Origin: a virus
IMG/VR virus record: IMGVR_UViG_3300028829_004377
Coordinates: 1 to 64,000 of that record
Length of the DNA stretch: 64,000 nt
Strand: one strand, 5' to 3'
The notes beneath the pieces were generated by a model, which saw only the letters and a list, made by a program, of their open reading frames with translations, made no database searches and was not told where the DNA came from. The stretch's first letter is position 1. Each line of letters starts with the position of its first letter. This document shows, in pieces, positions 1 to 40,233 of the stretch. The position numbers were made by a program, and so were the translations under genes.

Positions 1-125
1 AAAGAGTTATCTATGATGACGATGGTAATGCAACCGAGAAGAGTGATGTTATTGTAGAAGACTATGGTAAATCAGCTCATCATAGTCCAGGTATAATTAA
101 TAATTTAGATTTAGATGATATATGA
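1..125 (+). CDS. C-terminal end of a truncated upstream gene (possibly neck protein gp14)
   Basis: The reading frame that starts at base 3 is open from the window edge to a TGA at 123-125 and encodes about 40 residues ending in an acidic tail (NNLDLDDI). The stop overlaps the start of the gp15 gene in an ATGA arrangement, so the two are translationally coupled. In T4 and cyanophages gp14 precedes gp15, which makes gp14 the first guess. The fragment itself is too short to identify. Confidence 0.6.
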   Translation, partial: RVIYDDDGNATEKSDVIVEDYGKSAHHSPGIINNLDLDDI

Positions 126-1122: not shown

Positions 1123-1126
1123 AGAT

Positions 1127-2551: not shown

Positions 2552-3861
2552 TGGCTAACCCTAATGTAGATTCAGATTTTAGTAGAGGTTTTTACCAACA
2601 TAGAAGGACTTATAGTGCTACTGTGAACGGTGACGGAGCTCCTCTAGCTACTGATTTGCTAGAAGGTGAAATAGCAATAAACCTTTCTACAAGTAAATTA
2701 TATACAAAAAAGAATACTTTTCAAGATATAGACTATACAGATAAAATAGAAACGTTTCAGCAAAATGCGGGTATTTTATTAGATTTTTCTCCTATAAGTT
2801 CTGCTTACATAGGACAAAAAGTGGGTATTAATTTTAATAATGGTACTAAGTCTTTTATTTTTATAGACAGTGATGATACTACAGTGGGTAATTGGGTTAA
2901 TGATTTTGTAACTCACGTTGCTGCTAACCACCCATCTACTAGTGTTATCAACGGTACAGCATTAGGAGAGTTTGGTAAAACTAGTCAAGTATTAGTTTTT
3001 ACAGATGACTCAGATCAAGCATTAAGTTATGATTTAGATTCTGATTTTGTCAGATACATAGATCATACAAGAACAACAGTATCAAGATTGATACAATCAT
3101 CAGATTCAGACAACGATATTTTCGCAAAACAAGGTACAATAACACCAACAAGTTTTATAAAAACATATAAGACGGCAGGTTCAGTTAAATCAATAACCTC
3201 AACGTCAGTACCATTACGTAAGTTCGTTTCTGGTTCAGAGAATTCATACTTCGTTACTAATTTAACATTAGCGACAGGTGGAATAAACGAAGGGACAGAT
3301 CAATTTAGAGTTTCTATAGATCAAAATAATCCCTCTATTCTAGATTTAACAGCTAGAATACCTACAACATCCAACACCCCTCCTGCAGTTGCAGCAACCT
3401 CGTCTAAGCCCGGGTTAAATGGTGATTTGTGGATACAGCCTCCAGGTGCTGAAAATGATTCAGAGCCTAGTCATTTATATTGGCTAGATATGTCAGTAGT
3501 GAATTCTACTGCCGCTCAAGCTAAAGCTAGAGCCATGTCAGATTCAGATAGAATCTCTCAAGGAGTTGTCTTAATTGATTCAGATGGATCTGGCGGATCT
3601 ACCTTTGCTGAATGGAGACAAGTTACTTCTGGTAGTTTTCTTATAACTCAAAACTTTGGTACTGTATCTGAAACAAAAACTTTCGATTCTGATTCAATTC
3701 ATACTATGAAAGGAACACTTGACGTTAGTAATGGTGTACTAAAAGCTGGTTCTCGATTTGAGTTCCAAAACGATATGTTTACTAAAACTAAACGATTAAG
3801 AATAAAAAATGTAAGTGGAAGCACTGTATTTTCTATGGTAGGATTTGACTCAGACGGGTAA
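2551..3861 (+). CDS. Tail fibre / virion structural protein with Asp-Ser-Asp motifs
   Basis: The 436-aa product contains the motif LLEGEIAINLSTSKLYTKK near residues 37-55, of the GE(L/I)AIN...KLY(T/V) type common in phage fibre proteins that attach to baseplates. Its ATG shares the last base of the previous stop (TAATG), so it is co-translated with the gp9-like gene. Nine Asp-Ser-Asp tripeptides are spread through the chain and the protein ends in FDSDG. The specific role (fibre, tail pin or collar) cannot be read from sequence. Confidence 0.65.
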   Translation: MANPNVDSDFSRGFYQHRRTYSATVNGDGAPLATDLLEGEIAINLSTSKLYTKKNTFQDIDYTDKIETFQQNAGILLDFSPISSAYIGQKVGINFNNGTKSFIFIDSDDTTVGNWVNDFVTHVAANHPSTSVINGTALGEFGKTSQVLVFTDDSDQALSYDLDSDFVRYIDHTRTTVSRLIQSSDSDNDIFAKQGTITPTSFIKTYKTAGSVKSITSTSVPLRKFVSGSENSYFVTNLTLATGGINEGTDQFRVSIDQNNPSILDLTARIPTTSNTPPAVAATSSKPGLNGDLWIQPPGAENDSEPSHLYWLDMSVVNSTAAQAKARAMSDSDRISQGVVLIDSDGSGGSTFAEWRQVTSGSFLITQNFGTVSETKTFDSDSIHTMKGTLDVSNGVLKAGSRFEFQNDMFTKTKRLRIKNVSGSTVFSMVGFDSDG

Positions 3862-7893: not shown

Positions 7894-8185
7894 AAGAGCA
7901 ACAGTAAATGACGACGTTTTTTGTACATTTCCTTTTGTACATATAGCTACAAAAACCGCAGGTGAAATAAAACCTTGTTGTAGAGCTAGACCAACTAGTA
8001 ATATACAAGACGAGAGCTTAGAAGAAGCTTGGAACAACCCAAGAATGAGAGCTATTAGAAAAGAATTATTATCTGGTATAAAGTCTCCTGAGTGTAATGC
8101 TTGTTGGAAGCATGAAGATCAAGGTATAAGATCTATGAGACAAAGGACAGTAAAGAATCATATTAAGACTTTCGGACCTACTTAA
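7883..8185 (+). pseudogene. Twitch radical SAM gene, 5' part of a frame-disrupted copy
   Basis: The 100-aa product matches the N-terminal twitch segment of its neighbours: FCTFPFVHIATKTAG, then KPCCRAR, then CNACWKHEDQG. It stops at a TAA (8183-8185) exactly where the radical SAM core should begin. The core continues in another frame from 8167 onward (next entry). The conserved Asp-hydrophobic-Arg and the last two cluster cysteines survive in that second frame, but the first cysteine does not. A small deletion plus frameshift across the cluster motif best explains this. A sequencing error is possible. Confidence 0.75.
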
Positions 8186-8193
8186 AGTGTAGA

Positions 8194-15495: not shown

Positions 15496-15496
15496 T

Positions 15497-16267: not shown

Positions 16268-17297
16268 TTATGATTTTAATGCTATACCATTTGAAGATAT
16301 AGAAATGGTAGGTCAGCATAGTATGGTAGTTAAAGACCTGTTTACTGTATCATGGCTACTAGGAAGATTTTGTAATTATTCATGTTCATATTGCTGGCCT
16401 TATGCTTCAAGTAGAACTAAAGATCATAGAGATACTGAATTATGTTTAATGACTATAGACGAAATAAAAAGACAAGCGAGGGACAATGGGTTTAATTCAT
16501 TTCATTTTTCACTTAGTGGCGGTGAACCTACTTTTCATCCAGGGTATTTGGAAATACTCGAGCATCTTGCTGATGACGCTGATAATTGCAATTATACTTC
16601 AATACATATGACAACTAACTTATCAAGGAAAGGACCTTGGTGGGATAGATATCTTAAATCAGCTAATAAATTTCAAAGAGCTTCTATTACAGCTTCTTGT
16701 CATAGAGAGCATGTTAACACTGAAGCTAAGTTAGAAGAGTTTAGAGACAAGTTAGTTTATTTACAAGACAATGGAGTTAAATTAACTATTAATCAAGTTA
16801 TGTTAGTTGATACATTCTGGCAATGTTGGGAAGATGCTCAATACTTTGCTGAAAAAGATATTAACGTTACACTTAAACCTCAATCAGACCCTACTGCTTC
16901 ATTTGTTGTGGATGGTTACACTGATGAAATGTTAGAGTTGCTTCATAACGGTATGCCTCAGAATATAGACGGTAAACAAATTTTTCAAGTTGTCATGAAA
17001 GACAGTAAAGGAAAAGAATGGTGGATGGATCAAGCTGAGAGATTTAATGCTTTTAACTTTAATAGATTTAAAGGTTGGGAATGTTCATCAGGTTATAGAT
17101 CTATAATTATTAGAGAGCCAGACGGTAGCGTAAAAAGAAGCTATAGTTGTAATGATAAACCTTTAGGTTATATTCATAAAGGATTTAAATTGTTTGACGG
17201 CCCTAAAATATGTTCTACAGATACTTGTGTATCATCTGCAGATAGTAAAATACCTAAACGTAAATTAGGTACTGGTCATGCACTATGGCCGAAATAA
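16242..17297 (+). CDS. Radical SAM enzyme
   Basis: The core motif is C44-x3-C48-x2-C51 (CNYSCSYC), followed by FSLSGGEPTFHPGYLE. Other cysteines lie in the C-terminus (WECSSGYRS, then YSCNDKPLG, then CSTDTC). Length is 351 aa. It belongs nearer to the gene at 6829 than to the twitch subfamily. A ribosome site (AGGAGAG) precedes the ATG, which lies 26 bases inside the previous gene. This is the last radical SAM gene of the run; sugar-enzyme-like genes follow. The substrate is unknown. Confidence 0.85.
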   Translation: MNSISTLSDYDFNAIPFEDIEMVGQHSMVVKDLFTVSWLLGRFCNYSCSYCWPYASSRTKDHRDTELCLMTIDEIKRQARDNGFNSFHFSLSGGEPTFHPGYLEILEHLADDADNCNYTSIHMTTNLSRKGPWWDRYLKSANKFQRASITASCHREHVNTEAKLEEFRDKLVYLQDNGVKLTINQVMLVDTFWQCWEDAQYFAEKDINVTLKPQSDPTASFVVDGYTDEMLELLHNGMPQNIDGKQIFQVVMKDSKGKEWWMDQAERFNAFNFNRFKGWECSSGYRSIIIREPDGSVKRSYSCNDKPLGYIHKGFKLFDGPKICSTDTCVSSADSKIPKRKLGTGHALWPK

Positions 17298-18010
17298 ACT
17301 TCTATACATTTAAATGGGGAGAAAAATATGGCCCGGAATACGTCAACAGACTTTACGGTTCTTTACGGCACCACTGTAGTAAGTCTTTCGTACTTAATCT
17401 TATTTCTGATAATTTTCACGGGATTGATTCTAGTATCAATTGTATCGATTATACCAGCTTCGATCCTTTTCCTCATCCAAAAAATCAAATCTTTACAAGA
17501 GAAAAACTCGTCTTATTCGACAAATTCGTAGAAGGTAAAAATTGTTGGTTAGATTTAGATATACTTATACATTCAAATATAGATGATTTATTAGATTTAG
17601 ATTTTCCTAGACCTAAATTTATATGGAACTACTGGAACAATTATAAAGAGAGATCTGAAAGATGGTATGGTAAAGGTGTATCATGTCATGTCAATTCTTC
17701 TTTCGTTATGTGGGAAGGTGATAAAGGTAGATACTTATACAACTTACTTAAAGATAACGAAGAAAAAGCTTTCTTCACTTATAAGTCTTTAGATAAGTTT
17801 TTATTTTATCAAGCTCATAGAAAAGGGTTGATGGATTTCTGGGATGAAGGTATAGTAAGTAACTACAATAGAGAGTGGTTTCAGAAAAAAGGTAGGATGA
17901 GTATATTCAATACTTCACATATACTTTATAACAAAGGTATAACAGAGCAAGCATTTGAATTAGATGAGGCAAAAGGATGGGCAGAAGAGATGTGGAAAAG
18001 TTATTACTAA
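17285..18010 (+). CDS. Glycosyltransferase-like protein (DxD, GT-A type)
   Basis: The N-terminal motif GEKYGPEYVNRL recurs in the genes at 19320 and 19856, making the three paralogues. CWLDLDILIHSN provides a D-x-D in the position expected for nucleotide-sugar and metal binding in GT-A enzymes (GT8-like). VNSSFVMWEGD resembles the acceptor-side loop of such enzymes. It has no membrane segment, so it would act in the cytoplasm. The acceptor is unknown; a virion protein or a host glycan are both plausible. Confidence 0.7.
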   Translation: MAEINFYTFKWGEKYGPEYVNRLYGSLRHHCSKSFVLNLISDNFHGIDSSINCIDYTSFDPFPHPKNQIFTREKLVLFDKFVEGKNCWLDLDILIHSNIDDLLDLDFPRPKFIWNYWNNYKERSERWYGKGVSCHVNSSFVMWEGDKGRYLYNLLKDNEEKAFFTYKSLDKFLFYQAHRKGLMDFWDEGIVSNYNREWFQKKGRMSIFNTSHILYNKGITEQAFELDEAKGWAEEMWKSYY

Positions 18011-19009: not shown

Positions 19010-19335
19010 TTAAAGAACAAATAATAAGTAGACTAAAAGAAGTTTACGACCCTGAAATATCTATTAACATATATGACTTAGGTTTAATATACGATATCAA
19101 TTTAGAAAAATTACCCTTTGTGACTCTAACACATACATTAACTTCTGCTTTTTGTCCTGCAGCCGATTGGATAATAAAAGAAATAAAGAAAGCAGTAATT
19201 AACTCTCCTGGTGTAAAAGATTGTGAAGTTATTACTACTTTTGATCCTCCATTTGATATGTCAAGAGTAAGCGATGATGTAAAATTAGCAATGGGGTGGC
19301 ATGATGATGAGACGGATAATTGGGAACCTTACTAG
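19000..19335 (+). CDS. DUF59/MIP18-family Fe-S assembly factor (SufT/PaaD-like)
   Basis: Residues 17-32 (DPEISINIYDLGLIYD) are the family signature DPE...n..DLGLI, and C52 lies in TSAFCPAADWI, where the family has its conserved cysteine. The length of 111 aa is normal. DUF59 proteins help mature 4Fe-4S proteins, so its presence in a run of radical SAM genes makes functional sense: the phage may supply assembly capacity for its own clusters. It pairs with the A-type carrier at 52110. A ribosome site (GGTAGGA) lies just upstream. Confidence 0.85.
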   Translation: MEVIKEQIISRLKEVYDPEISINIYDLGLIYDINLEKLPFVTLTHTLTSAFCPAADWIIKEIKKAVINSPGVKDCEVITTFDPPFDMSRVSDDVKLAMGWHDDETDNWEPY

Positions 19336-19883
19336 ACATATTATTAGTTAATACTGGAAACAAATATTCAGAAAAATATGTTGATAATATAGTTTATATG
19401 TTATCTAATACTGGTACTAGGTATGATAAAATACACATAATAAGAGATGAGCAATATGATGGCGTGTGGAATAAACTTCAATTATTTAGAGACTTTAAAA
19501 ACGGTCCTTACTTATATTTCGATTTAGATGTTTGTATAAAAGATAATGTCGAACACTTGGTAAGAGATAACTTTACTTTACTACATGCTTGGTGGAGAAC
19601 TGCTCATCATACTCCATTAAATTCATCTATAATGTCTTGGAAAGGTGACTATAGTTTTTATTATAACACATTTGCAGCTAACTCAGATTATTATATGTTA
19701 AATTATAAAGGCATAGATCAATATATTTACGAATTAGATATGGTGTATGAAACTTATGATCCTGTCTGTACAAGTTACAACTGGCATGGTTTTGATGAAA
19801 AGTGGCCTGTTATAATTTTTAATCAAGCTGGCGAAAAAATGTTAGAGGATGGTCCATGGTCAAAGTATATGCAGTTAGGGTAG
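19320..19883 (+). CDS. Glycosyltransferase-like protein (DxD), second paralogue
   Basis: The 187-aa protein opens with ILLVNTGNKYSEKYVDNI, related to GEKYGPEYVNRL and GTKYGPEYETYL of its paralogues. YLYFDLDVCIKDN holds the D-x-D, and HTPLNSSIMSWKGD matches the VNSSFVMWEGD loop of the gene at 17285. The likely start is a TTG at 19320, because the first ATG would remove the first beta strand. It overlaps both neighbours. It is shorter than usual GT-A enzymes, so it may be a minimal or partner-dependent transferase. Confidence 0.65.
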   Translation: MGTLLDILLVNTGNKYSEKYVDNIVYMLSNTGTRYDKIHIIRDEQYDGVWNKLQLFRDFKNGPYLYFDLDVCIKDNVEHLVRDNFTLLHAWWRTAHHTPLNSSIMSWKGDYSFYYNTFAANSDYYMLNYKGIDQYIYELDMVYETYDPVCTSYNWHGFDEKWPVIIFNQAGEKMLEDGPWSKYMQLG

Positions 19884-20425
19884 GTACCAAGTACGGTCCT
19901 GAATATGAAACCTATTTAAAAAATAAATTACCAAGCATTGAATTTCTAAATAAAGAAGAACATCCTTTTATTCTGCAATGGAATAAATTAAGGTTTATGG
20001 AATTAGACATAAACGAACCTATATGCGTAATAGATGTTGATATTGAATTACATAATGATTATATGGAGTTATTTAATTACCCTATCAATAGAGGAGAATT
20101 TTTAAGTATACCAGCCTGGTGGAGAGATACACACAATGAAAGATATAAAATCAATGGTGGTTTCTATAAATACTACCCTAGAGACTGCAAATACATCGTC
20201 GAAAAATACAGATCTAAACCTGAGTATTATTCGACAAAATATATTAGAAATAAGACGACAGTTGGACCCGTCAACGGAGAACAATACTTTGTCGAAGACT
20301 CAGCAAGACGTCGCCTCAAAGTTATCACAGTTTCAGAAGCCTGGGTTCAACGAGCGGTACAAGACACATTTATTCAAGACGGTGAAGTAAAATTAGTACA
20401 CTACTCTTGGCAACCAACCAAGTGA
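19856..20425 (+). CDS. Glycosyltransferase-like protein (DxD), third paralogue
   Basis: The 189-aa protein begins VYAVRVGTKYGPEYETYL and carries ICVIDVDIELHND with the D-x-D. FLSIPAWWRDTHN corresponds to LLHAWWRTAHH in the gene at 19320. It is the last gene of the plus-strand island; its final 25 bases overlap the 3' end of the first oxygenase gene on the minus strand, so the two transcription units converge with no room for a separate terminator. Confidence 0.65.
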   Translation: MVKVYAVRVGTKYGPEYETYLKNKLPSIEFLNKEEHPFILQWNKLRFMELDINEPICVIDVDIELHNDYMELFNYPINRGEFLSIPAWWRDTHNERYKINGGFYKYYPRDCKYIVEKYRSKPEYYSTKYIRNKTTVGPVNGEQYFVEDSARRRLKVITVSEAWVQRAVQDTFIQDGEVKLVHYSWQPTK

Positions 20426-28067: not shown

Positions 28068-28490
28068 ATGGCGCGCCAGCTAAAGTACAATCTAAATAAC
28101 CGTGTTTTAACTATTGAAAACATGCTTGTAGATAAAATAGATTTCCAAGACAGTGACATCGCTGTCTTTACTTACGCTTCCGGAGCTACGGCAACGGCTA
28201 CTTCATCCGTTAGAAAGATAGCAGAGTTTAGTAAGTTAAGCTATGGTTCCGCTAAGTTCGTGATACAAGCCACGGATAAAATCACTGATGACAAGATGGT
28301 GACTGAAGTCTTGTTATTTTGCGATAGTGATTCAGTTGATATTACAGAGTATGCTACATTATTTTCAAGTAGTAGTCGCTTTGTAGATTTTAGTTCTGTA
28401 ATAAATGGAAGTTTATGTGAACTTAGATCACAAACCACTAGTGCTAACCAAACCGAGTTCAAGATTAATCTTACACTAATACGTAATTAA
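28068..28490 (+). CDS. Small virion/fibre-associated beta-domain protein
   Basis: The 140-aa protein has a beta-rich domain (KMVTEVLLFCDSDSVDITEY, LRSQTTSANQTEFKINLT) that resembles the C-terminal part of the next fibre (QVSEVLLTHDGTNVAFVEY, LRITSASAQSTTYKI). It may be a stand-alone copy of a fibre tip or trimerisation domain. Two Asp-Ser-Asp tripeptides are present, one written GACAGTGAC and one GATAGTGAT, both with the AGT serine codon. It begins after a late-promoter-like element. Confidence 0.6.
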   Translation: MARQLKYNLNNRVLTIENMLVDKIDFQDSDIAVFTYASGATATATSSVRKIAEFSKLSYGSAKFVIQATDKITDDKMVTEVLLFCDSDSVDITEYATLFSSSSRFVDFSSVINGSLCELRSQTTSANQTEFKINLTLIRN

Positions 28491-28525
28491 TTTTGTCCGC
28501 CTAGAACTTCAAGAGGGAGAGGAAA

Positions 28526-30025
28526 ATGGCAAATAGAGACTTTAGAATCCGTCAAGGATTATTGGTCGGTGATTCCGACCTGCATTTTAGTCTTGTAGGA
28601 GATACTAGTTTAAAGTTAAAAACCGGAAGTACAATTACCATTGGCGATAACGCTGTTATCAAAGCTGGTGATAATAATTCGCTTTTAACTAATAACGCAG
28701 GATATCTTACAGCAAGTAACGTTAACCAGATTATAGCAGATAATGAATCTGATAGTACCGTTATACAAGCTTTAAAGACTAAGCAAGACCAATTAGCTGC
28801 GAGAGTAGACTCTGACTCAACTAGAGTTCAGACTATTCGAGGTCAAGTAGATGTTATCCATACAAGAATGGATTCTGATCATGACTTATTTCAAGCTAAA
28901 ATAGCAGCTGGTTTATTAAACCTTGCTGACTCAGACCTGTTAACATTTCAATTAGACCAAAAAGTTGCTGCTCTTATCGGCAGATTAGATTCTGATTCTA
29001 TTGTTCAACAGACTATTAGATCACAAGTTTATCCTAGATTAGATTCTGATCATTCAGCAGCATTAAGAGCAGACTTAGACTCTGATAGTACTAAAATACA
29101 AGCTATTCAAATTGCTTTAGATGATTTGAATACAAGAGCGAAGATAATAGATTCTGACTCAATCTCAAATATGATTGACTCTGACTTTATTAATAGTAGA
29201 TTACACTTTACTGAGAACGGTGTCTTTGCTGTTGACTCAGAAGGTGAATTGATGGTATTAACAGGATCAGATACAATTGACTCTGTTGGTAACGCTATTA
29301 CTACATTAAGAACAGATCGTGATTCTGATTCGACTAAGTTACAATTATTGCAAGGTAAGCAAAGTGATATTATTGCAAGATTAGACTCTGAAGATCCTAG
29401 AATCGCAGCTCTTAGAAAAGAATTTATCTCAAGATTAGATTCTGATCAAGCTGTTATCTCTTCTTTGGTGTTATCAAGTAACTTACAAAAGGCCAGATTA
29501 GACTCTGACCAGACGCAAGTACAACTTGTTAATACAAGAGTAAATGATGCCTTAGCTAGACTCGACTCAGATACTGTAAAGATATCTGCATTACAGAGAG
29601 TAGTTGATGCGTTAAGAGGCGATCAAGATTCAGAAGATTCTCTGAAATCTAAATTTAATAATGATATTACGTTAGGTGTTAATGCAGCTAATACTGGTGG
29701 TATAGCGGTTGTGGCTCCAGCTACAATAACTACTACTAGTACTGATGCAACAACAGTTACTACACGTGCTTCAAACTCCTTTAAAGGAATGAAAGTACTA
29801 GTAACTGCTGCTAACACAGTATCAGGTGAGAATCAAGTATCAGAAGTACTTCTTACTCATGATGGTACTAACGTCGCTTTTGTTGAGTACGGTATAGTAT
29901 ACACTGGATCAATTCCGGTTACTGCTATAAGTGCTGATATAAATGGTGGAAATGTAAGACTAAGAATCACTTCTGCGTCTGCTCAATCTACTACTTATAA
30001 AATCATAGAGCAAATAACGTTATAA
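28526..30025 (+). CDS. Long tail-fibre-like protein with RLDSD coiled-coil repeats
   Basis: The 499-aa protein starts with RIRQGLLVGDSDLHF, a marker shared with the fibre at 30093. Its middle (residues ~90-370) is a chain of RLDSD-type repeats 18 or 21 residues long, with Ile/Leu/Val spaced like a coiled coil. The C-terminal ~90 residues form a beta domain shared with the gene at 28068. Thirteen Asp-Ser-Asp tripeptides are present. The design (N-terminal attachment, helical shaft, C-terminal beta tip) is that of a trimeric phage fibre. Confidence 0.72.
   Translation: MANRDFRIRQGLLVGDSDLHFSLVGDTSLKLKTGSTITIGDNAVIKAGDNNSLLTNNAGYLTASNVNQIIADNESDSTVIQALKTKQDQLAARVDSDSTRVQTIRGQVDVIHTRMDSDHDLFQAKIAAGLLNLADSDLLTFQLDQKVAALIGRLDSDSIVQQTIRSQVYPRLDSDHSAALRADLDSDSTKIQAIQIALDDLNTRAKIIDSDSISNMIDSDFINSRLHFTENGVFAVDSEGELMVLTGSDTIDSVGNAITTLRTDRDSDSTKLQLLQGKQSDIIARLDSEDPRIAALRKEFISRLDSDQAVISSLVLSSNLQKARLDSDQTQVQLVNTRVNDALARLDSDTVKISALQRVVDALRGDQDSEDSLKSKFNNDITLGVNAANTGGIAVVAPATITTTSTDATTVTTRASNSFKGMKVLVTAANTVSGENQVSEVLLTHDGTNVAFVEYGIVYTGSIPVTAISADINGGNVRLRITSASAQSTTYKIIEQITL
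28802..29640 (+). repeat. RLDSD repeat array (18- and 21-residue units) in fibre
   Basis: Units such as RLDSDSIVQQTIRSQVYP (18 residues) and RLDSDTVKISALQRVVDA (start of a 21-residue unit) recur within the fibre. Hydrophobic positions sit seven to eleven residues apart. Serine in the DSD is mostly TCN here, with AGT in some units. Confidence 0.8.
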
Positions 30026-30028
30026 ATA
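30021..30028 (+). promoter_or_regulatory. Late promoter TATAAATA
   Basis: An exact TATAAATA overlaps the stop of the preceding fibre and lies 64 bases before the ATG at 30093. It is followed by a GAAA-loop hairpin in the leader. Confidence 0.6.
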
Positions 30029-30040
30029 TAATAATATACG

Positions 30041-30060
30041 AGGAGAGAGAAATCTCTCCT
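30041..30060 (+). other. Leader hairpin with GAAA tetraloop
   Basis: AGGAGAGA, GAAA and TCTCTCCT make a perfect 8-bp stem closed by a GNRA tetraloop. It lies 12 bases after the late promoter, at about the 5' end of the message, and has no T-run after it. A protective 5' hairpin is more likely than a terminator. Confidence 0.6.
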
Positions 30061-30092
30061 CTATAATATGACTCTGGGGATAGTGAACCGAG

Positions 30093-31631
30093 ATGGCACA
30101 AAAAAATTTTATGATAAAAAACGGTCTTCGTGTAGGAGACTCTGACCTTTTCGTTACTTCAGGCGGTACAACCGTTAAAGGACTTACTGTAGGTAACGTT
30201 AGTATTCCCTCAACTATTGGTTCTGACAATCAAATTTTAAAGGTTGTCTCTGGTTCACTTGCCTTCGCATCTGTTGCCGAAATAGAAGATAGTGACTTAA
30301 CTAAAGTCGCAAATTTACAAAACAAAGTAGACGGTTTAATAAACAGATTAGATTCTGATGATGCTGATAGACAAATAGGTACTTTAGTAGTCGACAGTGA
30401 TGGTCAAATATTATTAAACACAAATGATGATGTAGCAAATTCAGGTACTTTGACTATTGACTCTGATGGACAGATATTATTCTTAACTGGTAACGATACA
30501 TTAGACTCAGTTGGTGGTGCTATATTATCTCTTAGAGCTGATAGAGATTCCGATTCATCTAAGTTAGCAAAAATAAGTGAAATTACAAACAGGCTAGATT
30601 CAGACAGCGCAGCTATTCAATCATTAGCAACTAAGACGAGAGCAGATCTAGACAGTGATAGTATAATAATACAATCATTAAAAGCAGCTACAAATACTAA
30701 TACAGCTAACATAGCTGGTTTAGGTGGTATAGATTCAGATCACACATTCCAAACTTTAACTGTTAATAACACAACTACAGATGATAGTATATTAGTTACT
30801 ACAACTGAAGATTCTAATAATGCAGGTCCAGTGATTACACTTAAACGTAATAGTTCTAGTGTAGCCGACGCAGATTACTTAGGTCAAATAAAGTTCAAAG
30901 GTGAAAATGATGCTAACCAAGAAATAGTATATGCAAAAATTACAGGAAAAATACAAGACGCTAGTGACGGAACTGAAGATGGTATTATTGAAATAACTCA
31001 TAAGAAAGCTGGCTCAAATAATATTAGTGCAAGATTTAATAGCGACACACTTCAATTAATTAATGGTACAGGATTAGAAGTTGATGGTACAGTAACTGTA
31101 GGCAATGGATTAACTCTAACTGATGGCAACGTTATAGTAGCAAATGGTCATGGTATAGATTTTAGTGCCACAAGTGATGCTACTGGTATGACCGGTGAAC
31201 TGCTTGATGATTATGAAGAAGGTATATATACCCCTACAGTCACAGGTAGGACAAGTGGTAGCTATACTCTTGGAGATAGTGCTACAAAATTGTCATATGT
31301 AAAAATTGGTAGAATGGTTCACTTGCAAGGTCAATTACATATAACTGGTGAAAGTAGTCCAAACGGAGTTATAGATATAAGTTTACCATTTGCAACAGGT
31401 AATGGCGCAGATTTAAGTGATAGGTCTGTTGGTTCAGTTGCTTTTGATGGAGTTGGTGCACAAGGTCCGGATCATAATTCTGGTAATTTTGTTAATTTTT
31501 ATGTTTCAACTGATGCATCTGTTGGATCATTTAGGTCATCTGAGAATAATACATCGGCAGGAACTCTTAACAACTCTCATATGGCAACCAATGATAGGTT
31601 TACCATAGGTATAACATACATGACGTTCTAA
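30093..31631 (+). CDS. Tail fibre protein with DSD shaft and marine-phage C-terminal domain
   Basis: The 512-aa protein starts MIKNGLRVGDSDLF, parallel to the previous fibre. Its first half has nine Asp-Ser-Asp tripeptides, including two VDSDGQI/IDSDGQI repeats. The C-terminal ~150 residues contain DDYEEGIYTPTVTG, then YVKIGRMVHLQGQL, then ISLPFATGN, a domain I know from many marine phage fibres and likely the receptor-facing end. The GTG-started gene at 31650 follows 18 bases later. Confidence 0.72.
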   Translation: MAQKNFMIKNGLRVGDSDLFVTSGGTTVKGLTVGNVSIPSTIGSDNQILKVVSGSLAFASVAEIEDSDLTKVANLQNKVDGLINRLDSDDADRQIGTLVVDSDGQILLNTNDDVANSGTLTIDSDGQILFLTGNDTLDSVGGAILSLRADRDSDSSKLAKISEITNRLDSDSAAIQSLATKTRADLDSDSIIIQSLKAATNTNTANIAGLGGIDSDHTFQTLTVNNTTTDDSILVTTTEDSNNAGPVITLKRNSSSVADADYLGQIKFKGENDANQEIVYAKITGKIQDASDGTEDGIIEITHKKAGSNNISARFNSDTLQLINGTGLEVDGTVTVGNGLTLTDGNVIVANGHGIDFSATSDATGMTGELLDDYEEGIYTPTVTGRTSGSYTLGDSATKLSYVKIGRMVHLQGQLHITGESSPNGVIDISLPFATGNGADLSDRSVGSVAFDGVGAQGPDHNSGNFVNFYVSTDASVGSFRSSENNTSAGTLNNSHMATNDRFTIGITYMTF

Positions 31632-31649
31632 TAATTATAGGAGTAGAAA

Positions 31650-31907
31650 GTGGCATTAACAGAAGAAACAATACAAGATAAAATTGAAGTGGTAGGGCCG
31701 TATAAATTTATACAAGTTAGAACTGCAACAGTCATTAAAAGAGATGGTACAGAAATAAGTCGAGTTTTTTCAAGACACATAGTTTCACCAAACATAAGTG
31801 CAGATGGCTTATCTAATGAAAGCACAGAAGTGCAAAATATAGCAAACGGTGTTTGGACAGATGAAATTAAAACTGCTTATGCTGCACATTTAGCTGATGA
31901 CGACTAG
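31650..31907 (+). CDS. Small conserved marine-phage protein (85 aa)
   Basis: The product starts with GTG after a good ribosome site (ATAGGAG). The sequence DKIEVVGPYKFIQVRTATVI and ISRVFSRHIVSPN resembles a small protein found next to fibre genes in cyanophages, as I recall; its function is unknown. It may be a fibre chaperone or minor virion protein. It contains no Asp-Ser-Asp. Confidence 0.7.
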   Translation: MALTEETIQDKIEVVGPYKFIQVRTATVIKRDGTEISRVFSRHIVSPNISADGLSNESTEVQNIANGVWTDEIKTAYAAHLADDD

Positions 31908-31917
31908 AGTGCATAAT

Positions 31918-31925
31918 TATAAATA
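31918..31925 (+). promoter_or_regulatory. Late promoter TATAAATA
   Basis: An exact octamer lies 10 bases after the previous stop and 76 bases before the ATG at 32002. The leader that follows is unusually long for this phage and carries two inverted repeats. Confidence 0.6.
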
Positions 31926-31930
31926 AAACA

Positions 31931-31965
31931 GCATTAATGCTACTGAGCTAGAACCACGAAAGTGG
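31931..31965 (+). other. Structured leader: palindrome and GAAA-loop hairpin
   Basis: GCATTAATGC (31931-31940) is a perfect palindrome, and CCAC-GAAA-GTGG (31954-31965) is a 4-bp stem with a GNRA loop. They lie in the leader of the gene at 32002. A second GAAA-loop hairpin follows the late promoter at 30021. Confidence 0.45.
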
Positions 31966-32001
31966 CAGGGCTTCCAACCAGAACAAAAGGGGTAAAGGAA
32001 A

Positions 32002-32592
32002 ATGGCAACTCAGATATTAGGACGAGTAAGACTCGTTTTTAAAGGCGCTTATAACGCCGGTACAACATACCAAAAATTAGATACAGTACATCACGAAGGT
32101 ATTGCATACTCAGCAGTATCAGGTGGCTTCTCAGGTGTAACCCCTGGATCAGATGCTACTAAATGGGCTGTTATTATTGACACAGGTACTAATCCAGGAC
32201 TTATTGCTAGATTAGATTCTGATACAGTTAAGTTAAGTAACTTATCAGCAGCTGTTAATAACTTAAGAGCAGATAGAGACTCAGAGCACGGTTTGATTAT
32301 ATCAAAACTTAATCAAGTAGCTGACTCTGATTTCATTATGGCTCAATTGAATCCAAAAATAACAGAAATCATAGCTAGATTAGACTCTGATACAGTAGCA
32401 GTTTCAGCTGTTAAGACAGCATTGAATAGTGGATACACATTCCCAGGTGGTATTACTATTACAGCAGGTCAAGCATTTAACTTTGATGGTAATGCTTTTA
32501 CAGACGCACACAAATTAGAAATTAGAAATACTTCTAATAGTGTTGTATTCGGAGGATATGTACTAGATACAGACGATAACTCAGGCAACTAG
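32002..32592 (+). CDS. Fibre protein with carbohydrate-binding-like N-terminus
   Basis: The 196-aa protein starts with a segment KGAYNAGTTYQKLDTVHHEG, then AYSAVSG, then KWAVI, which has the shape of a chitinase-type carbohydrate-binding module (W/Y-x-Y..G-D.V...G..Y). Two RLDSDT repeats follow as a short coiled coil. The C-terminus ends with a beta stretch. It has three Asp-Ser-Asp tripeptides. A short tail fibre or adaptor fits best. Confidence 0.62.
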   Translation: MATQILGRVRLVFKGAYNAGTTYQKLDTVHHEGIAYSAVSGGFSGVTPGSDATKWAVIIDTGTNPGLIARLDSDTVKLSNLSAAVNNLRADRDSEHGLIISKLNQVADSDFIMAQLNPKITEIIARLDSDTVAVSAVKTALNSGYTFPGGITITAGQAFNFDGNAFTDAHKLEIRNTSNSVVFGGYVLDTDDNSGN

Positions 32593-32618
32593 TAACTGGG
32601 AATAAAAGGTGAGGGTGA

Positions 32619-35600
32619 ATGGCGTACGATTCAGATGATATCCCTCTCGTTACTAGACTAGAGGCAGGTACTAATGTAGGTGTAGGGTTTGTTGTAAACT
32701 CCGAAGGTGAAGGTGTTTACACTATATCCTCTACTACTGACTCAGATGTTGTTAAGAATATGGTCTTTGAGCATGCTGGCACAGCCGTTGCAGCTCTTAG
32801 ATCAGATCTTGACTCAGAGACAACACGCGTCCAGACTCTTTTAAGAAGAGCTGAAACTGCAGTATCTCGACTAGACTCTGATGAGAGTAGATTACAAGCA
32901 ATTAAGACTGATTTAACTGCAAGGTTAGACTCAGATACTGCTGCTATTAGTAACTTAGCCGCTAATGCTGGTCACGACTCAGATGCAATCGTTAATATGA
33001 TTCAAGAGCATGCTGGACAAAATACAGTAGGCAATCAAATCACACTCGGTGCTCCCTTACAAGATGGTTCCTTATCAAGTGAAACTGGTGCTATAGCATT
33101 AGAAACAACTGAAACAGTTACTGACGCTATCGATAAATTAAATGAAGCTACTAGAAACGTAATTAGAAATACTGCTGTTTCTAATTTAGATTTTACTGGT
33201 GACAACTTAATCGGTGGTGCTGGTTTCACTACTACATTAACAACAAGTGCAGATGGTAACCCTAATAGATATGATATTCATTGGGGTGACGGTAACATAG
33301 ATTCAGACAGTTCTGATAGTACACCATCTCATACATACAATTCAAACGTAGGTTCTCCTTTTACTGTAAGAGTAATAGCTAGAAACTCTTCTGGAGAAGG
33401 TGCTGGTTCATTTTCAGTTAAAGAAAGAAGTAACTACGTAACAGTTTTTACAGCTACACCAGCTGTTTCATTCGCAATATATGCTGCATCGTCTGGTGGT
33501 TCTCCTATTACACAATGGGATGATGGCGATACAATTTATTTACAAAATAATACTACTAATACTTCAAATGCAATCGCAGGTTATGTTTTTAATTTTGGTG
33601 ATAGCGATTTAATGCATGCTATAGATTCTGATAGATTACCTGGTGGTTCTATTAATAACGGCGGTAGTAGATTACCTTATACATTTGATACAGTAGTTGA
33701 AGAAGATAGAAGATTTAATATTTCTCTCACATTAAATTCACACACTACAGCTAACCCAACTGATATACCTGCAGCTGACTCAGATAATTTCTTTAATGTT
33801 TTAGATACACATACACCATCTGTAAGTATAAATGATAGTGATGGTGTAAATGAAGAAGCTACATCAGGTCATGTTATACAAGCAACTAACAATTCAGGTT
33901 CAGGTGTTGGTAACTTTGCAACATTTGGTAGTAGATATGTTTATGTATGGGGTGACGGTACATCTAATACAACAGTAAATGCAGGAACAGGTTCATCAGG
34001 TGATAGAGGAGCTAGTGCAGTTTCTCATACTTATGCATTACCTGATTCAGATCAAGCTAATGGACATACAGTTACTTTTACTGGTAAATTACAAATAACT
34101 TCTAATCATGATTCATCTCCTTTCGAATCAGATCCTTTTGAAATTACAGTTAGACCTGATTTAAGAGTCAACTATGCTGCAACTGCAGTAACTGTTTCTG
34201 ATAGATCAGGAGATAATAGTAGAGACATATATGACTTTGTAGACTTAAACGGTGCAAATAGAGCATTAGTAAGAGCTACTAACACATCACAAAATGCAAC
34301 TAATTTAACTTATAGTTGGGCCGATGGAGATTCAGATTCATTAACTGAAGATGGATCATCTCCAGGTTCATTAGGAGCTACTATTGATCATGACTATACT
34401 GGAGAGTCAACTGGTAGTTATGCTTCTCAATTATTTGCTTCTGGTTCACCTGGAAGTGTAGCTCAATCAGATAAAGAAAGTGTCACATTTACAATTAACG
34501 CAGTACCAGCTGCTCCTAGTAACTTATCTACTTTTACTTTAACTTTATCAGATTCAGCTCACGGTACTAATCCTAAATTAGCTTCAGGTTTCACTGATAA
34601 TACAGGTACTATGTCTACATTAGCAGCAGGAACATCTCTTAATAGTACAACTGCAAGAAGATATACTACTGGAATTATAGATACTAATACAATTAATAAT
34701 GCTTATAATGGAGCTGCAGGTGAAGTAACATGTATAAGAAATGGTGATAGTGACGGTACTATATCATTTACTACAACATCAGGAGAAACTGGAGCTGCTG
34801 GTTCACTTCAAGTTACTCAACAAGCTGATGCTCATGATACTATTAGTTCTTCTACATATCCATCCAATTTTTATCAGACATTTGATGCTAAAATAGCTAG
34901 ATCTTTATCAGGTTATACTTTAGGACTTAATGCACAATTAATAAAACATTCGCAGACAGGTTCAACATCTACTGTTCACATATTAAGAGACGATACAGTT
35001 TCAGCGGCTCCGACAGTATCAAGTACAGGTACTGTATCAGTTAATAATTCAGGAACCTATAGATACATTTCAGGAGTGCCTTATTTTAATTCTGGAAGCC
35101 CTACAATAAACGTTGCAGGTATTCAAATATCAAATTTTGTAGGACAAGCTTATAATGATACATCCTCTCCTGTTGAAATAGATTCTGGAACTAATCAAGA
35201 AAGTACTAGTTCTGCTGGTACAGTTAATACAAATTATACTTACGCTAATGTAGATGGTTCATCAACAATGTTATCCGGAGGCATACCTATTGCTAATACA
35301 GGTGTTAGTTCTGCTTATACATTAGCTACCTTAAGTGTTGCTATTACATCTTCATCAGTTAGAACAGTAGATAGAATTAAAGTGAGAGCAAGTAATACTA
35401 ACGGTACTAGTTCTTATGTAGAAAATACAACTAATATAAACGTGCATACAGCTTCTCAATCTGGAATAAACGAAACTGCTATAAGTGTAGCTGGTGGATT
35501 AGGTTCAGGTTTTACCGACAACGGAGTTAGATCAGGAGCTTTAAAATCAGCTACTACTGATACCCCTGCGTTGAGAGGTGGTTCATATAATTATTACAAT

Positions 35601-36122
35601 ACAGATATATTCGTAGAAGATTCAGATAGTGGAGTTCAAGGCACTAAAGAAGCTACAATTAGATTAGGGGTATTAAAACACGATACTACTAACTACAGTA
35701 CATATGTTCCTCCTGGACCAAACAGATCAGGTGATACAGGAACTCAATATTTTACAATGGCGTTTAGAAGAACAGCAATGGCTAACTTTACAGTTAATAT
35801 TGTTTCGTCTTCTGGTATAGAAGGTATGTTTATAGCAGCACCAGGCACAGTAATTGATTCATCATCCTCATTAAATGGATGGTTAGATTGTGGAGGTCAA
35901 TATGCAGGTGCTGGTGTACCAGGCGCTAACACAGGATCAGGAGGAAACGGTTCTAATGGATGTGCATCTACTGGAGGTGATATTGTAGGTACAGGAGCGC
36001 TGAATGGCTCTTTTACTTTCACGCTCGGTACAGAAAACGCAACCAATGCTACTAATAATAATATTCTTTTAAGAATAGGATTAGCATCAGGTGATTCAGT
36101 AACTAGTTTGAGTATAAGTTAA
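32619..36122 (+). CDS. Giant fibre/adhesin with coiled-coil base and PKD-like domains
   Basis: At 1167 aa this is the largest protein of the window. Residues 1-130 include RLDSD coiled-coil units. From about residue 185 a series of Ig/PKD-like domains follows: YDIHWGDGNI...SHTY, then YVYVWGDGTSN...SHTYALPDSD, then LTYSWADGDSD...DHDYTGES. The rest is a Ser/Thr/Gly-rich beta adhesin ending in several Gly-rich stretches. Fourteen Asp-Ser-Asp tripeptides are present. PKD domains mediate binding to proteins or polysaccharides, so this is a likely host-recognition fibre. Confidence 0.72.
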   Translation: MAYDSDDIPLVTRLEAGTNVGVGFVVNSEGEGVYTISSTTDSDVVKNMVFEHAGTAVAALRSDLDSETTRVQTLLRRAETAVSRLDSDESRLQAIKTDLTARLDSDTAAISNLAANAGHDSDAIVNMIQEHAGQNTVGNQITLGAPLQDGSLSSETGAIALETTETVTDAIDKLNEATRNVIRNTAVSNLDFTGDNLIGGAGFTTTLTTSADGNPNRYDIHWGDGNIDSDSSDSTPSHTYNSNVGSPFTVRVIARNSSGEGAGSFSVKERSNYVTVFTATPAVSFAIYAASSGGSPITQWDDGDTIYLQNNTTNTSNAIAGYVFNFGDSDLMHAIDSDRLPGGSINNGGSRLPYTFDTVVEEDRRFNISLTLNSHTTANPTDIPAADSDNFFNVLDTHTPSVSINDSDGVNEEATSGHVIQATNNSGSGVGNFATFGSRYVYVWGDGTSNTTVNAGTGSSGDRGASAVSHTYALPDSDQANGHTVTFTGKLQITSNHDSSPFESDPFEITVRPDLRVNYAATAVTVSDRSGDNSRDIYDFVDLNGANRALVRATNTSQNATNLTYSWADGDSDSLTEDGSSPGSLGATIDHDYTGESTGSYASQLFASGSPGSVAQSDKESVTFTINAVPAAPSNLSTFTLTLSDSAHGTNPKLASGFTDNTGTMSTLAAGTSLNSTTARRYTTGIIDTNTINNAYNGAAGEVTCIRNGDSDGTISFTTTSGETGAAGSLQVTQQADAHDTISSSTYPSNFYQTFDAKIARSLSGYTLGLNAQLIKHSQTGSTSTVHILRDDTVSAAPTVSSTGTVSVNNSGTYRYISGVPYFNSGSPTINVAGIQISNFVGQAYNDTSSPVEIDSGTNQESTSSAGTVNTNYTYANVDGSSTMLSGGIPIANTGVSSAYTLATLSVAITSSSVRTVDRIKVRASNTNGTSSYVENTTNINVHTASQSGINETAISVAGGLGSGFTDNGVRSGALKSATTDTPALRGGSYNYYNTDIFVEDSDSGVQGTKEATIRLGVLKHDTTNYSTYVPPGPNRSGDTGTQYFTMAFRRTAMANFTVNIVSSSGIEGMFIAAPGTVIDSSSSLNGWLDCGGQYAGAGVPGANTGSGGNGSNGCASTGGDIVGTGALNGSFTFTLGTENATNATNNNILLRIGLASGDSVTSLSIS

Positions 36123-37984
36123 TGGCAATTAGTTTAACAGCAAAGGTAGACTTTCTTTTTAAGAAATTAGGTTTCGGTGTTGCTAGAACTGACTCTGATT
36201 CATTAAAAGGTCCAACTAACGAATCTATTGCATCTCCATTATTAAACAGAGGTGATAAAACTCTAGTACAAGCTAATCTTATACCAGCTACTTTACCTGC
36301 AAGTACTACAGGAGTTGTAGAAGTATATAGTTCAAGCAATTTAGTTGAAGCTGTAGCAGATGGTACAGCGAGTGCTAATAGAACTTGGATTACTGGTGTC
36401 ACAGATTGGATACCACCTGAATTTGGTTCAACATATCAAGTAAAAGTATATCTACACGATTCAGGTGACAGTGATAATGCAGCTGGAATATCTAATCAGC
36501 TATTTGCTGCTGGTTCTGGTAATGACGATGAATGGTTTTTTGATTATCAGTCTGGTGTGTTACACTTTATGGGTGAAAACTTACCTAATGGTAAAGACTT
36601 TACAGACAAAAGCATATACATTAGTGGTGGTCAATATATTGGTATACTAGGTGTAGGTTCTGTCGGATTTGATAGTGATCAAGTTATAGAAATAATAAGA
36701 GAGAACGGTTTAAGAGTATTAGAAATACCTTCCGACTCTGACTTAAAAGTTGTAGCTGATCTATCTAATAATGTCAATACTATTACTGCTAGATTAGATT
36801 CAGATTCAAGTTTTATACAAGCGTTAGCTACTCAAGTAAAATCAAGATTAGATTCAGACGATGCAGCATTACAAGCACTAAGTACTTCGACTGCAGCTGC
36901 ACAAGCAAGAGCTGATGCTGCTCACGTAAGATTAGATTCTGAGTCAACTAAAGTACAGTTGTTAAAAACTAATTTAACCAGTAGACTAGATTCAGATTCA
37001 TTAGTAGTACAAGCATTAAAAACTGCTCAAGATATAATTCATACTAGAATAGATTCAGATAGAGCTGCTTTAGATAGTAGAGTATCTGACATAAGATTAA
37101 GATTAGATTCAGAGGCAGCTAAAGTATCAGTACTTCAATCTCAAATGAGATTAAGATTAGACTCTGAAGGTACTAAGTTAAGTTTATTGCAGTCTCAAGT
37201 AAGAGCTAGATTAGATAGTGATCATAATTTATTTCAAGATAAGATAAGAAGTATTGTAGGTATTGGTGACTCTGATCTTGCAGTAGCTGCTACATTGAGA
37301 AATGAAGTAGATGGATTAAGAGCTGACATTGATAGTGAAACTACTAGAATGACATATATTCAGTCTTTAGCTGGTAGAATAAAATCAGATATGGATTCAG
37401 ATTTTGTACATTTTACTAGTAAAGTAGGTTCATCAGGCGGCGCTAGCGATTCAGATATAAATGTACTTACCAATAAAATAAATTTATTAAGATCTGATAG
37501 AGATTCAGATGAAATAGCTATTCAAGCATTGGGTACATTAATAGGTACTATGCAAGGTGATATAGCTAAATTGAATACTTTAATAGGAGTTACTTCAAGC
37601 TCAACACCTGCAACTCCTGTACCAACTGATTCTGAAAACTTAGCGACAGTTACGTTCTCAACTGATAGTGATCAGATATTAGAAGCTCAAATGAGTGTTA
37701 CTTGGAGAGTTGTATCCGGAGACGGATCTACAGTGTCTTCTAATACTATGATATTTGCTAAAGGTTCATCAGATGCAAATATATTAAGGGTGCTAGCTTA
37801 CAACCTAGAATCACATCCTGTAGCTAAAGGTTTCTTTAATACATTATTGTATAGAGATTCGAATGTTATTGAATATGCATTCAAAGATAAGTTCAGCTTA
37901 GCTGAATATAAATTAACGTTTACAATAAATAGTCATGGCGGGGATAATCCTCGATTTACTAATACGTTACCGACAGGTTCGTAG
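36122..37984 (+). CDS. Fibre protein with long RLDSD coiled coil
   Basis: The 620-aa protein starts translationally coupled to the giant fibre (TAATG). Residues 1-200 form a domain ending in GSVGFDSDQVIEIIRENG. Residues ~224-380 are a regular series of 18-residue RLDSD/RLDSE units, and the C-terminus (after SSSTPATPVPTDSEN) is a beta domain. Fourteen Asp-Ser-Asp and several Asp-Ser-Glu motifs occur. It probably partners the PKD protein in one fibre. Confidence 0.7.
   Translation: MAISLTAKVDFLFKKLGFGVARTDSDSLKGPTNESIASPLLNRGDKTLVQANLIPATLPASTTGVVEVYSSSNLVEAVADGTASANRTWITGVTDWIPPEFGSTYQVKVYLHDSGDSDNAAGISNQLFAAGSGNDDEWFFDYQSGVLHFMGENLPNGKDFTDKSIYISGGQYIGILGVGSVGFDSDQVIEIIRENGLRVLEIPSDSDLKVVADLSNNVNTITARLDSDSSFIQALATQVKSRLDSDDAALQALSTSTAAAQARADAAHVRLDSESTKVQLLKTNLTSRLDSDSLVVQALKTAQDIIHTRIDSDRAALDSRVSDIRLRLDSEAAKVSVLQSQMRLRLDSEGTKLSLLQSQVRARLDSDHNLFQDKIRSIVGIGDSDLAVAATLRNEVDGLRADIDSETTRMTYIQSLAGRIKSDMDSDFVHFTSKVGSSGGASDSDINVLTNKINLLRSDRDSDEIAIQALGTLIGTMQGDIAKLNTLIGVTSSSTPATPVPTDSENLATVTFSTDSDQILEAQMSVTWRVVSGDGSTVSSNTMIFAKGSSDANILRVLAYNLESHPVAKGFFNTLLYRDSNVIEYAFKDKFSLAEYKLTFTINSHGGDNPRFTNTLPTGS
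36791..37262 (+). repeat. 18-residue RLDSD/RLDSE repeats in fibre shaft
   Basis: Consecutive units (RLDSDSSFIQALATQVKS, RLDSESTKVQLLKTNLTS, RIDSDRAALDSRVSDIRL, RLDSEAAKVSVLQSQMRL, RLDSEGTKLSLLQSQVRA) are each exactly 18 residues, interrupted by a few longer spacers. Eighteen residues equal one heptad plus one hendecad, or five straight helical turns. Confidence 0.85.
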
Positions 37985-38034: not shown

Positions 38035-40233
38035 ATGGCCTTCCAAGTTAGTCCAGGTGTACAGGTAAAAGAAAAAGACCTTACCAATATTATACCTGCT
38101 GTAGCAACTACAACAGGTGCATTTGCTGGAAATTTTGAATGGGGACCTTGTCTAGAACCTACACTTATTTCAAGTGAAGAACAGTTAATAGCAAAGTTTG
38201 GTAACCCAAAAGTATCAACAGTAGCAGGTGAAAGTACTAGAAGCGATTGGTACACAGCTGCGAACTTTTTATCATACGCAAATGCAATTCAAATAGTAAG
38301 AATTTTAACTGATGGCGCTAGAAACGCTGCATCAGAGTTCGTTACATTAGAGTCAGGAAAGACAACAATTAGTATTACTGGTACCCCAGCTTTTACTTTT
38401 CCCGATTCAGATGGTGAGGGACATAAAACTCAGACAGTAACCATTGGAGCAGTTACAAGCGCATCTGCATTTCAATTTACAGTTACTGATTCCGACGATA
38501 TTTCATCCATTGGTGACGTTGCAAACATCTTAAAGAATGCTATCAATACTGAAGCTAATGCCACAGACGCCGCGATAGACTCCGACGGTGCCGCAGCATT
38601 GGCAGGTGATACAGCAATTACTTTTACAACACCAGCCGCTGCAACTGCTCCTTCAGCTGTAACTACAGTAGGACTAACGTTTACTCCTTATCAAGAAGCT
38701 GAACAAGGTTCTGGTTTTGCTACAGCAGCAGTTCTTAATAATTTAGATGACTTTAATGCTGAAGAAAGTACTCTTATCAATGGTTCAGTCTATGCTAGGT
38801 TCCCTGGTCATAGAGGTAACGGTATAGGAGTAGCTCTTATTGATGCTGGCATGAACGATTCAGACTTTAACAATACACCTATTGTTGGCTCTGGTTCAGC
38901 TGCAATTAAAGCAGCTACATTGTTTGAAAAGAGACCAGGTAGGTCACAATGGTCTGTAGACAACTTTGACTCAGATGTTCAAGATGAAGTACATGTTATT
39001 GTATACACCTCTGATACTACTATCACAGGATCTGCATATGAAGTACTTGAAACATTTGAAGGTTTATCTAAAGCAGGTAACGGTAAAACAGCTGATGGTG
39101 GTCAAAATTATTATAAAAATATAATTAATAATACATCACAGTGGATTTACGTACTTACAGAAGATCTAGCTAACGGTAATTCTACCGCAGCAGTATCAAA
39201 TTCTGAACAAGTAACTGCAATAGGTATTGATATTTACAAAGCAAATGAAAAAGACTTCGTAAGATTTGTTACTAACATGTCTCTAACAGGTGTAAGAAGA
39301 TACACACTTAATGGTGGTTCTTCTGGAGATGATGTTGATGCAGGTGATTATACAGCAGGTCTTGATAAGTTTAAAGATCCGGAAGAAATTGATATCTCAT
39401 TAATTTTAGGTAATAGTTTCGGTAGCGGTTCTTCAAACGCGACAAAACAAAAAGTAGTACAAAAGTATGCAATAGATAATATTGCAAATGTAAGAAAAGA
39501 TTGTGTAGTATTTTGCTCACCATCTTATGATGCAGCAGTAGTTAATCCAACTGCAGCTAAAGTTACTACTTATTTTTCTGACTTTAACTCTACATCGTAT
39601 GCAATGTTCGATTCTGCTTGGAAGAGAATGTATGACAGATATAATGATCAATTTTTCTGGTCAGCGATGGCAGGTGATACAGCAGGTATCACCGCAAGGT
39701 CAGAATTCACTAATGATGCTTGGTGGTCACCAGCAGGTTTCAATAGAGGTTTTGTATCCAATGTAGTTAAATTATCTTTCAATCCTCAACAAGCAGACAG
39801 AGATGTTCTGTATAGAGAAAGAGTCAACCCTATGGTTACTCAAAGAGGTCAAGGTACATTACTATTTGGTGATAAAACTGCACTAAGTAAACCTTCAGCT
39901 TTTGATCGTATTAATGTAAGAAGATTATTCATTGTATTAGAAAAAGCAATTGCAACTGCAGCCAAGTTTCAACTCTTTGAATTCAACGACGACTTTACAA
40001 GAGCTAATTTTGTAGCAGCAGTAGAGCCTTTCTTACAAGATATAAAAGCAAGAAGAGGATGCCAAGACTTTAAAGTAGTTTGTGATACTTCAAATAATAC
40101 ACCGGCGGTTATTGATGGTAATAGATTCGTAGCTGACATCTATATCAAACCTAATCGTTCAATTAACTTTATAACTCTTAACTTCGTCGCAGTTAGAACC
40201 GGCGTTAGTTTTGAAGAAGTAGCAGGAGCGTAA
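38035..40233 (+). CDS. gp18: Tail sheath protein gp18
   Basis: The start MAFQVSPGVQVKEKDLTNIIPAVATTTGAF is typical of T4-type sheath proteins, and the C-terminal half has RRLFIVLEKAIATAAKFQLFE and the final SINFITLNFVAVRTGVSFEE, the conserved domain-IV region. At 732 aa it is longer than T4 gp18 (659). Residues ~120-230 appear to be an insertion with Ala/Thr/Ser-rich beta sequence and three Asp-Ser-Asp tripeptides; two more occur later. It is followed two bases later by the tube gene, the usual T4 order. Confidence 0.95.
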   Translation: MAFQVSPGVQVKEKDLTNIIPAVATTTGAFAGNFEWGPCLEPTLISSEEQLIAKFGNPKVSTVAGESTRSDWYTAANFLSYANAIQIVRILTDGARNAASEFVTLESGKTTISITGTPAFTFPDSDGEGHKTQTVTIGAVTSASAFQFTVTDSDDISSIGDVANILKNAINTEANATDAAIDSDGAAALAGDTAITFTTPAAATAPSAVTTVGLTFTPYQEAEQGSGFATAAVLNNLDDFNAEESTLINGSVYARFPGHRGNGIGVALIDAGMNDSDFNNTPIVGSGSAAIKAATLFEKRPGRSQWSVDNFDSDVQDEVHVIVYTSDTTITGSAYEVLETFEGLSKAGNGKTADGGQNYYKNIINNTSQWIYVLTEDLANGNSTAAVSNSEQVTAIGIDIYKANEKDFVRFVTNMSLTGVRRYTLNGGSSGDDVDAGDYTAGLDKFKDPEEIDISLILGNSFGSGSSNATKQKVVQKYAIDNIANVRKDCVVFCSPSYDAAVVNPTAAKVTTYFSDFNSTSYAMFDSAWKRMYDRYNDQFFWSAMAGDTAGITARSEFTNDAWWSPAGFNRGFVSNVVKLSFNPQQADRDVLYRERVNPMVTQRGQGTLLFGDKTALSKPSAFDRINVRRLFIVLEKAIATAAKFQLFEFNDDFTRANFVAAVEPFLQDIKARRGCQDFKVVCDTSNNTPAVIDGNRFVADIYIKPNRSINFITLNFVAVRTGVSFEEVAGA

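Follow-up and report, generated by a model that had tools for sequence, protein, structure and literature searches.

One of the closest described counterparts of the motif reported here is found in the staphylococcal SD-repeat proteins with their enzymes SdgA and SdgB. There, too, a serine stands between two aspartates, and the peptide DSD is the minimal acceptor O-GlcNAcylated by SdgB (PMC8561734). A second system is that of the Bacteroidota, in which D-(S/T)-x is glycosylated with a preference at position +1 that varies by species, and in which the motif is enriched in the phylum (PMC12871550). With its sequon, D-(S/T)-(A/I/L/V/M/T), the phage motif shares the near-obligatory Asp at -1, the preference for Ser and the variable +1 position. 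Our search of the literature found nothing relevant on such a motif in phages.

We analysed a stretch of 64,000 nt (the window), which is part of a 69.5-kb record of a marine T4-like myophage. Among isolates, its tail sheath is matched best by the Pelagibacter phages HTVC008M and Mosig, with which the phage shares a similar Kyanoviridae-type gene order and the presence of enzyme genes amid the tail genes. The genes run from a gp15-like sheath stabilizer and structural ORFs through a hypervariable enzyme island and the terminase to the fibres, sheath and tube, followed by the portal and head genes. In this phage and its relatives the tripeptide D-S-(D/E) is present at approximately 10 to 20 times the chance level, and only in tail and neck proteins (Table 1). 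Unlike in the SD-repeat proteins, the phage DSD tripeptides are isolated, without long SD runs, and are scattered over many unrelated virion proteins. The Bacteroidota system acts on non-cytoplasmic proteins and also takes Thr, whereas the tail proteins of phages are synthesised in the cytoplasm, DTx is not enriched in them and the +1 residue is acidic.

Table 1. Motif-bearing ORFs and putative glycosyltransferase ORFs in the window
Feature	Position	Strand	Motif sites or database match
Sheath stabilizer (gp15-like)	122..1114	+	7 DSD; phrog_227, 5.6e-56
Structural ORF, weak match to baseplate wedge/fibre connector	1127..2551	+	6 DSD
Structural ORF, no assigned function	2551..3861	+	9 DSD
Putative glycosyltransferase-like ORF	17285..18010	+	DLD motif
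Possible glycosyltransferase-like ORF	19320..19883	+	phrog_1962 glycosyltransferase, E=0.0012
Putative glycosyltransferase-like ORF, candidate	19856..20425	+	DxD-type motif
Small structural ORF, weak connector match	28068..28490	+	2 DSD
Coiled-coil stretch of the 28526 ORF, with most of its 16 DS(D/E) sites	28802..29635	+	13 DSD, 3 DSE; 8 R(L/V/M)DS(D/E)
Fibre ORF	30093..31631	+	9 DSD, 2 in RLDSD context
Small fibre ORF	32002..32592	+	3 DSD, 1 DSE
PKD-like fibre, 1167 aa	32619..36122	+	14 DSD, 1 DSE; PF18911 E=4e-4, below Pfam's cut-off
Long predicted helical shaft, residues 205-488 of the 36122 ORF	36734..37585	+	DS(D/E) at 18- or 21-residue steps
Tail sheath (gp18-like)	38035..40233	+	5 DSD, all in variable loops

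Enrichment of D-S-(D/E) in virion proteins

A set of 39 virion proteins from three relatives contains 301 copies of DSD, while 16.6 were expected (maximum in 200 shuffles, 28), a ratio which is somewhat inflated since the proteins were selected for at least two DSD each. DSE was found 66 times in the same set (6.9 expected). All other tripeptides of the types DxD, xSD and DSx were near or below chance, among them DTD (4 observed, 13.5 expected), DND (8 and 10.3), DAD (8 and 12.1) and ESD (4 and 6.8); DGD showed a slight excess only. When whole records were counted without such a selection, the observed and expected numbers of DSD were 88 and 10.8, 139 and 13.7, and 146 and 17.4; the 88 copies belong to the 69.5-kb record and the 146 to a record of 152 kb.

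At the level of single ORFs, the sheath and the structural ORFs located at 122-3861 and 28068-37984 hold 10 to 30 times as many DSD as expected, and almost none occur among the enzyme-island and replication genes. The original prediction, which had placed a repeat at 28802-37262, was right in locating it there, while the excess of DSD extends to the ORFs at 122-3861 and to the sheath. The proteins concerned are fibres, baseplate or neck proteins and the sheath, and they include non-helical proteins. The tube, the major capsid protein and the large terminase have no DSD, and the portal has none or one. An over-representation this specific in its residues, and limited to a single class of proteins, is to be expected of a sequon.

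The fibre repeat and its predicted coiled coil

The five fibre ORFs contain 22 units of the type R-(L/I/V/M)-D-S-(D/E), while 1000 shuffles of the same proteins gave 0.04 on average and never more than 2. Eight units are located in the 28526 ORF (the first at 28802), eight in the 36122 ORF, and two each in the ORFs at 32002, 32619 and 30093, the last of which was missing from the four fibres previously listed as carriers. In the PKD-like fibre both units lie close to the N-terminus, and the remaining DSDs are mostly in non-coil regions. In the same shuffle control at most one pair of neighbouring DS(D/E) sites was 18 or 21 residues apart; in the real proteins there are 25 such pairs. The repeat itself is therefore real. 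Its spacing had been called exact, which is justified for the 36122 protein, where 14 DS(D/E) sites lie in residues 205-461 and 12 of the 13 spacings are 18 or 21 (in order 21, 18, 28, 18, 21, 18, 18, 18, 18, 21, 21, 18, 18; random placement gives 0.5). Elsewhere it is looser; for example, the spacings 12, 19, 20, 24 and 9 occur too in the 28526 protein.

Around 62 RLDS(D/E) units, hydrophobic residues are found at -12, -8, -5, -1, +6, +9, +13 and +17 from the first Asp. This pattern matches the a/d positions of a predicted heptad coiled coil whose missing d slot would be filled by the second acid (+2), and the heptad/hendecad periodicity expected of a coiled-coil fibre shaft is present. In the AlphaFold model of the 36122 protein, a monomer prediction from 7 sequences with low confidence (pLDDT mostly 40-67, mean 47), helices are predicted at residues 205-265, 275-402, 406-436 and 444-488, and this shallow model shows no beta-helix. 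The proposal that the 18/21-residue repeat forms a coiled coil thus gains support from both the hydrophobic pattern and the model. Using tblastn, we found no match of the 36122 repeat in isolate phages.

The shafts resemble the trimeric coiled-coil fibre shafts of other phages in their long predicted heptad helices with stutter-like 18-residue units. They differ from them in the regular acid at core position d and in the conserved Ser, and further because the motif is common to non-coiled proteins as well. DSD is enriched and conserved in sheath loops, in the PKD-like fibre and in neck proteins, and the motif consequently needs another explanation than the coiled coil; the coiled-coil repeat is one display of a wider D-S-(D/E) motif.

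Conservation and turnover of the sites

The structural model of the sheath resembles T4-like sheaths (36% identity and Z 36.8 to Klebsiella phage KP1; Z 33 to T4 gp18), and all five DSDs are located at loops or at the edges of structural elements, some of them reading DSDG. In the sheath alignment, each of 15 clade loci has five DSD, yet in three different sets of positions, and nearly all of the 21 other relatives in the alignment have none. This points to turnover of sites at a constant number.

In 281 orthologue pairs, which overlap in ancestry and for which retention is therefore given descriptively and without a p-value, the Ser of DS(D/E) was kept in 86.5% of the aligned cells (54.9% for other Ser). 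The Asp at -1 was retained in 89.3% and that at +1 in 82.7%, compared to 74.9% for other Asp. Replacement of Asp by Glu accounted for 7.9% of the changes at -1, for 43% at +1 and for 17.6% at other Asp. Most DSD-bearing sites are outside coil context, where 84% of the triplets were retained, and in coil-like context the value was 88%. As judged from these alignments, D-S-(D/E) appears to be under purifying selection with positional asymmetry.

Distribution among phages

In one clade with strong support, 20 of the 23 rows are DSD-rich sheaths. A separate DSD-rich sheath (L278) is on a long branch and its placement in the tree is unsure; its kin show a milder enrichment of DSD and DSA together. 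In one of these relatives (G024), the observed and expected numbers are 48 and 8.3 for DSD, 39 and 9.3 for DSA, 7 and 7.6 for DSE, and 5 and 10.7 for DTA. In this second T4-like clade (L358-L437, G024, G025, G019), a part is enriched for DSD and DSA and other members are near chance; DSE, DTD, DTA and DST are not enriched. Its DSD and DSA sites are likewise in tail, neck, fibre and sheath proteins. According to these sequences, the D-S core seems to be unchanged in the second clade and the preference at +1 to be different. In contrast to the DSD-rich relatives, DSD is at chance level in HTVC008M (14 observed, 15.2 expected) and Mosig (9 and 12.2), and the values for Melnitz (12 and 14.1) and P-HM1 (10 and 16.6) are similar. 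No isolate in the collection proved to be strongly enriched; of the records tested, phage C48C1 comes closest, with 32 DSD observed and 11.9 expected. In the long metagenomic relatives G018 and G028 it is at or near chance. A third enrichment, that of DGS, was dropped because hardly any of it lies outside giant fibre proteins.

A possible serine-modification sequon and other explanations

Based on these observations, we consider it a serious possibility, just short of an even chance, that D-S-(D/E) is a serine-modification sequon, most likely for O-glycosylation, which in one clade is spread over the proteins of the outer tail, the neck and the fibres. A modification of Ser is favoured by the strict Ser, the strict Asp at -1, the acid at +1, the occurrence in helices as well as in loops, the site turnover, the restriction to the tail and the two bacterial precedents. 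A serine-directed enzyme, encoded by the phage or by its host, would recognise the Asp at -1 together with the acid at +1 and would modify the middle Ser, O-glycosylation being the likeliest chemistry. Fibre shafts would carry the sequon on a trimeric-type coiled coil at steps of 18 or 21 residues, and the sheath and other proteins would carry it in loops, which would give an even decoration of the tail surface. It is a little more speculative, though still plausible, that some marine T4-like phages have a tail-wide, sequon-directed Ser modification, with DS(D/E) or DS(D/A) according to the clade, by which sheath, neck and fibres are decorated and the capsid is not. The sequon would differ from the D-(S/T)-hydrophobic type: the first clade has D/E at +1 and no Thr, and in the second clade DSA fits this type while DTA does not. 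Such a modification might serve to shield the tail or in adhesion.

The same residue specificity, surface loops, site turnover and conservation would be expected if a phage or host protein, such as a decoration protein, a chaperone or a receptor, docked non-covalently on the unmodified tripeptide. We regard this as rather unlikely, since copy numbers this large, in both helices and loops, would rather be expected of sites marked by an enzyme, and no candidate partner was found. Still less probable is a structural role of the motif in trimeric coiled-coil shafts, where the second acid, placed at core position d, would make acidic, possibly metal-binding layers. The heptad with D/E at d, the 18/21 spacing and the helical model agree with such layers, but most DSD sites lie outside coil context and are about as conserved there, and the excess is also seen in the coil-free sheath and neck proteins. 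Moreover, Ser is required even though it is at heptad position c, away from the core, and N, T, A or G in its place are not clearly enriched. A role in coils only is thus left as a secondary function. The acidic rings or metal sites by which the motif had originally been explained do not account for it either, because DSD is equally enriched and approximately equally conserved outside coils, because acids or chelation alone would not make the middle Ser essential, and because the second clade uses DSA beside DSD, i.e. without a second acid.

Binding of calcium or magnesium as an adaptation to seawater would be in line with the acidic nature of the motif and with the sheath sites which read DSDG like calcium-binding loops. 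We consider it very unlikely, since DND, DTD and DAD occur less often than by chance and DGD just slightly more often, related marine phages have no excess of DSD, and the second clade uses DSA. Neither the tolerance for N, G and T nor the extended D-x-D-x-D-G pattern of a calcium loop was found, and only 12% of the DSDs are followed by G. Finally, the regular fibre repeats resemble products of repeat duplication, and selection at the DNA level or a spreading repeated DNA element could in principle have made the motif. This we hardly believe: the variety of codons contradicts a DNA-level cause, with 16 different nine-mers for 87 sites and Ser codons used broadly as elsewhere, a degenerate DSD-type DNA pattern matched 104 times in the forward but only 9 times in the reverse direction, and the positions differ between the sheath lineages.

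If D-S-(D/E) is indeed a modification sequon, phage tails would bear a mark that is encoded in sequence, extends over the virion and can be read from genomes alone, and metagenomics would gain a simple signature of modified virions. Further, the sequon would be a possible target for the many unassigned glycosyltransferases, 2OG oxygenases and radical-SAM proteins adjoining the tail genes in marine T4-like phages.

Candidate modifying enzymes

None of the candidate enzymes was found to follow the distribution of the motif; as the records are mostly fragments, a missing enzyme is weak evidence either way. We read the ORFs at 19856 and 17285 as glycosyltransferase-like, and the PHROG match of the ORF at 19320 weakly suggests the same. 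The 19856 ORF of the window has no Pfam or PHROG match. Its family of short, conserved proteins comprises 277 viral loci; the 80 kept (L125-L204) have 49-76% identity, and only about nine of them are DSD-rich. As sole determinant of the motif it is out, since it occurs in many DSD-poor phages and was undetected in the contigs of the second clade that were searched. In difference to the staphylococcal system, no homologue of an SdgB-type GT4 was detected in 17 phage records, most of them fragments (PF00534 as a proxy; control genomes were positive). The RIO-like kinase at 13938 was not found in the 17 records, DSD-rich or DSD-poor. The radical-SAM cluster was rejected as the modifier, with matches in only three of the 17 relatives' records, two of them DSD-poor.

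KdsA (3-deoxy-8-phosphooctulonate synthase) is encoded in some phages of both motif clades (G000, G014, G024, G025, G029), and was found in four of the 50 records searched, in motif-clade phages only. The loci are L093:8793-9536 (record 68792-69537), L210:1215-1988, L482, L483 and L485, with 290-310 bits for the two tested. The ORF next to KdsA in three phages of the second clade can be read as KdsB-like. At first KdsA was attractive as determinant, but it does not track the motif cleanly: G029 has it yet is barely DSD-enriched (L383), and it was not found in 109 kb of one strongly DSD-rich relative, nor in most DSD-rich fragments.

Several further genes were observed in these regions. The radical-SAM run in the tail region (5426-17297, plus strand) consists of eight PF04055 ORFs, one just under the cut-off; several belong to the twitch/SPASM family NF033640, and relatives hold other enzymes at that place. 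Genes for a weak Asp/Asn hydroxylase-like match, TauD and a fatty acid desaturase are on the opposite strand amid the structural region (20401-25777, minus strand). In the relative G001, adjacent genes for an AGT-like DNA glucosyltransferase (PF11440), an NAD-dependent epimerase and a cytidylyltransferase-like protein are present at L094:9561-12180 (minus strand).
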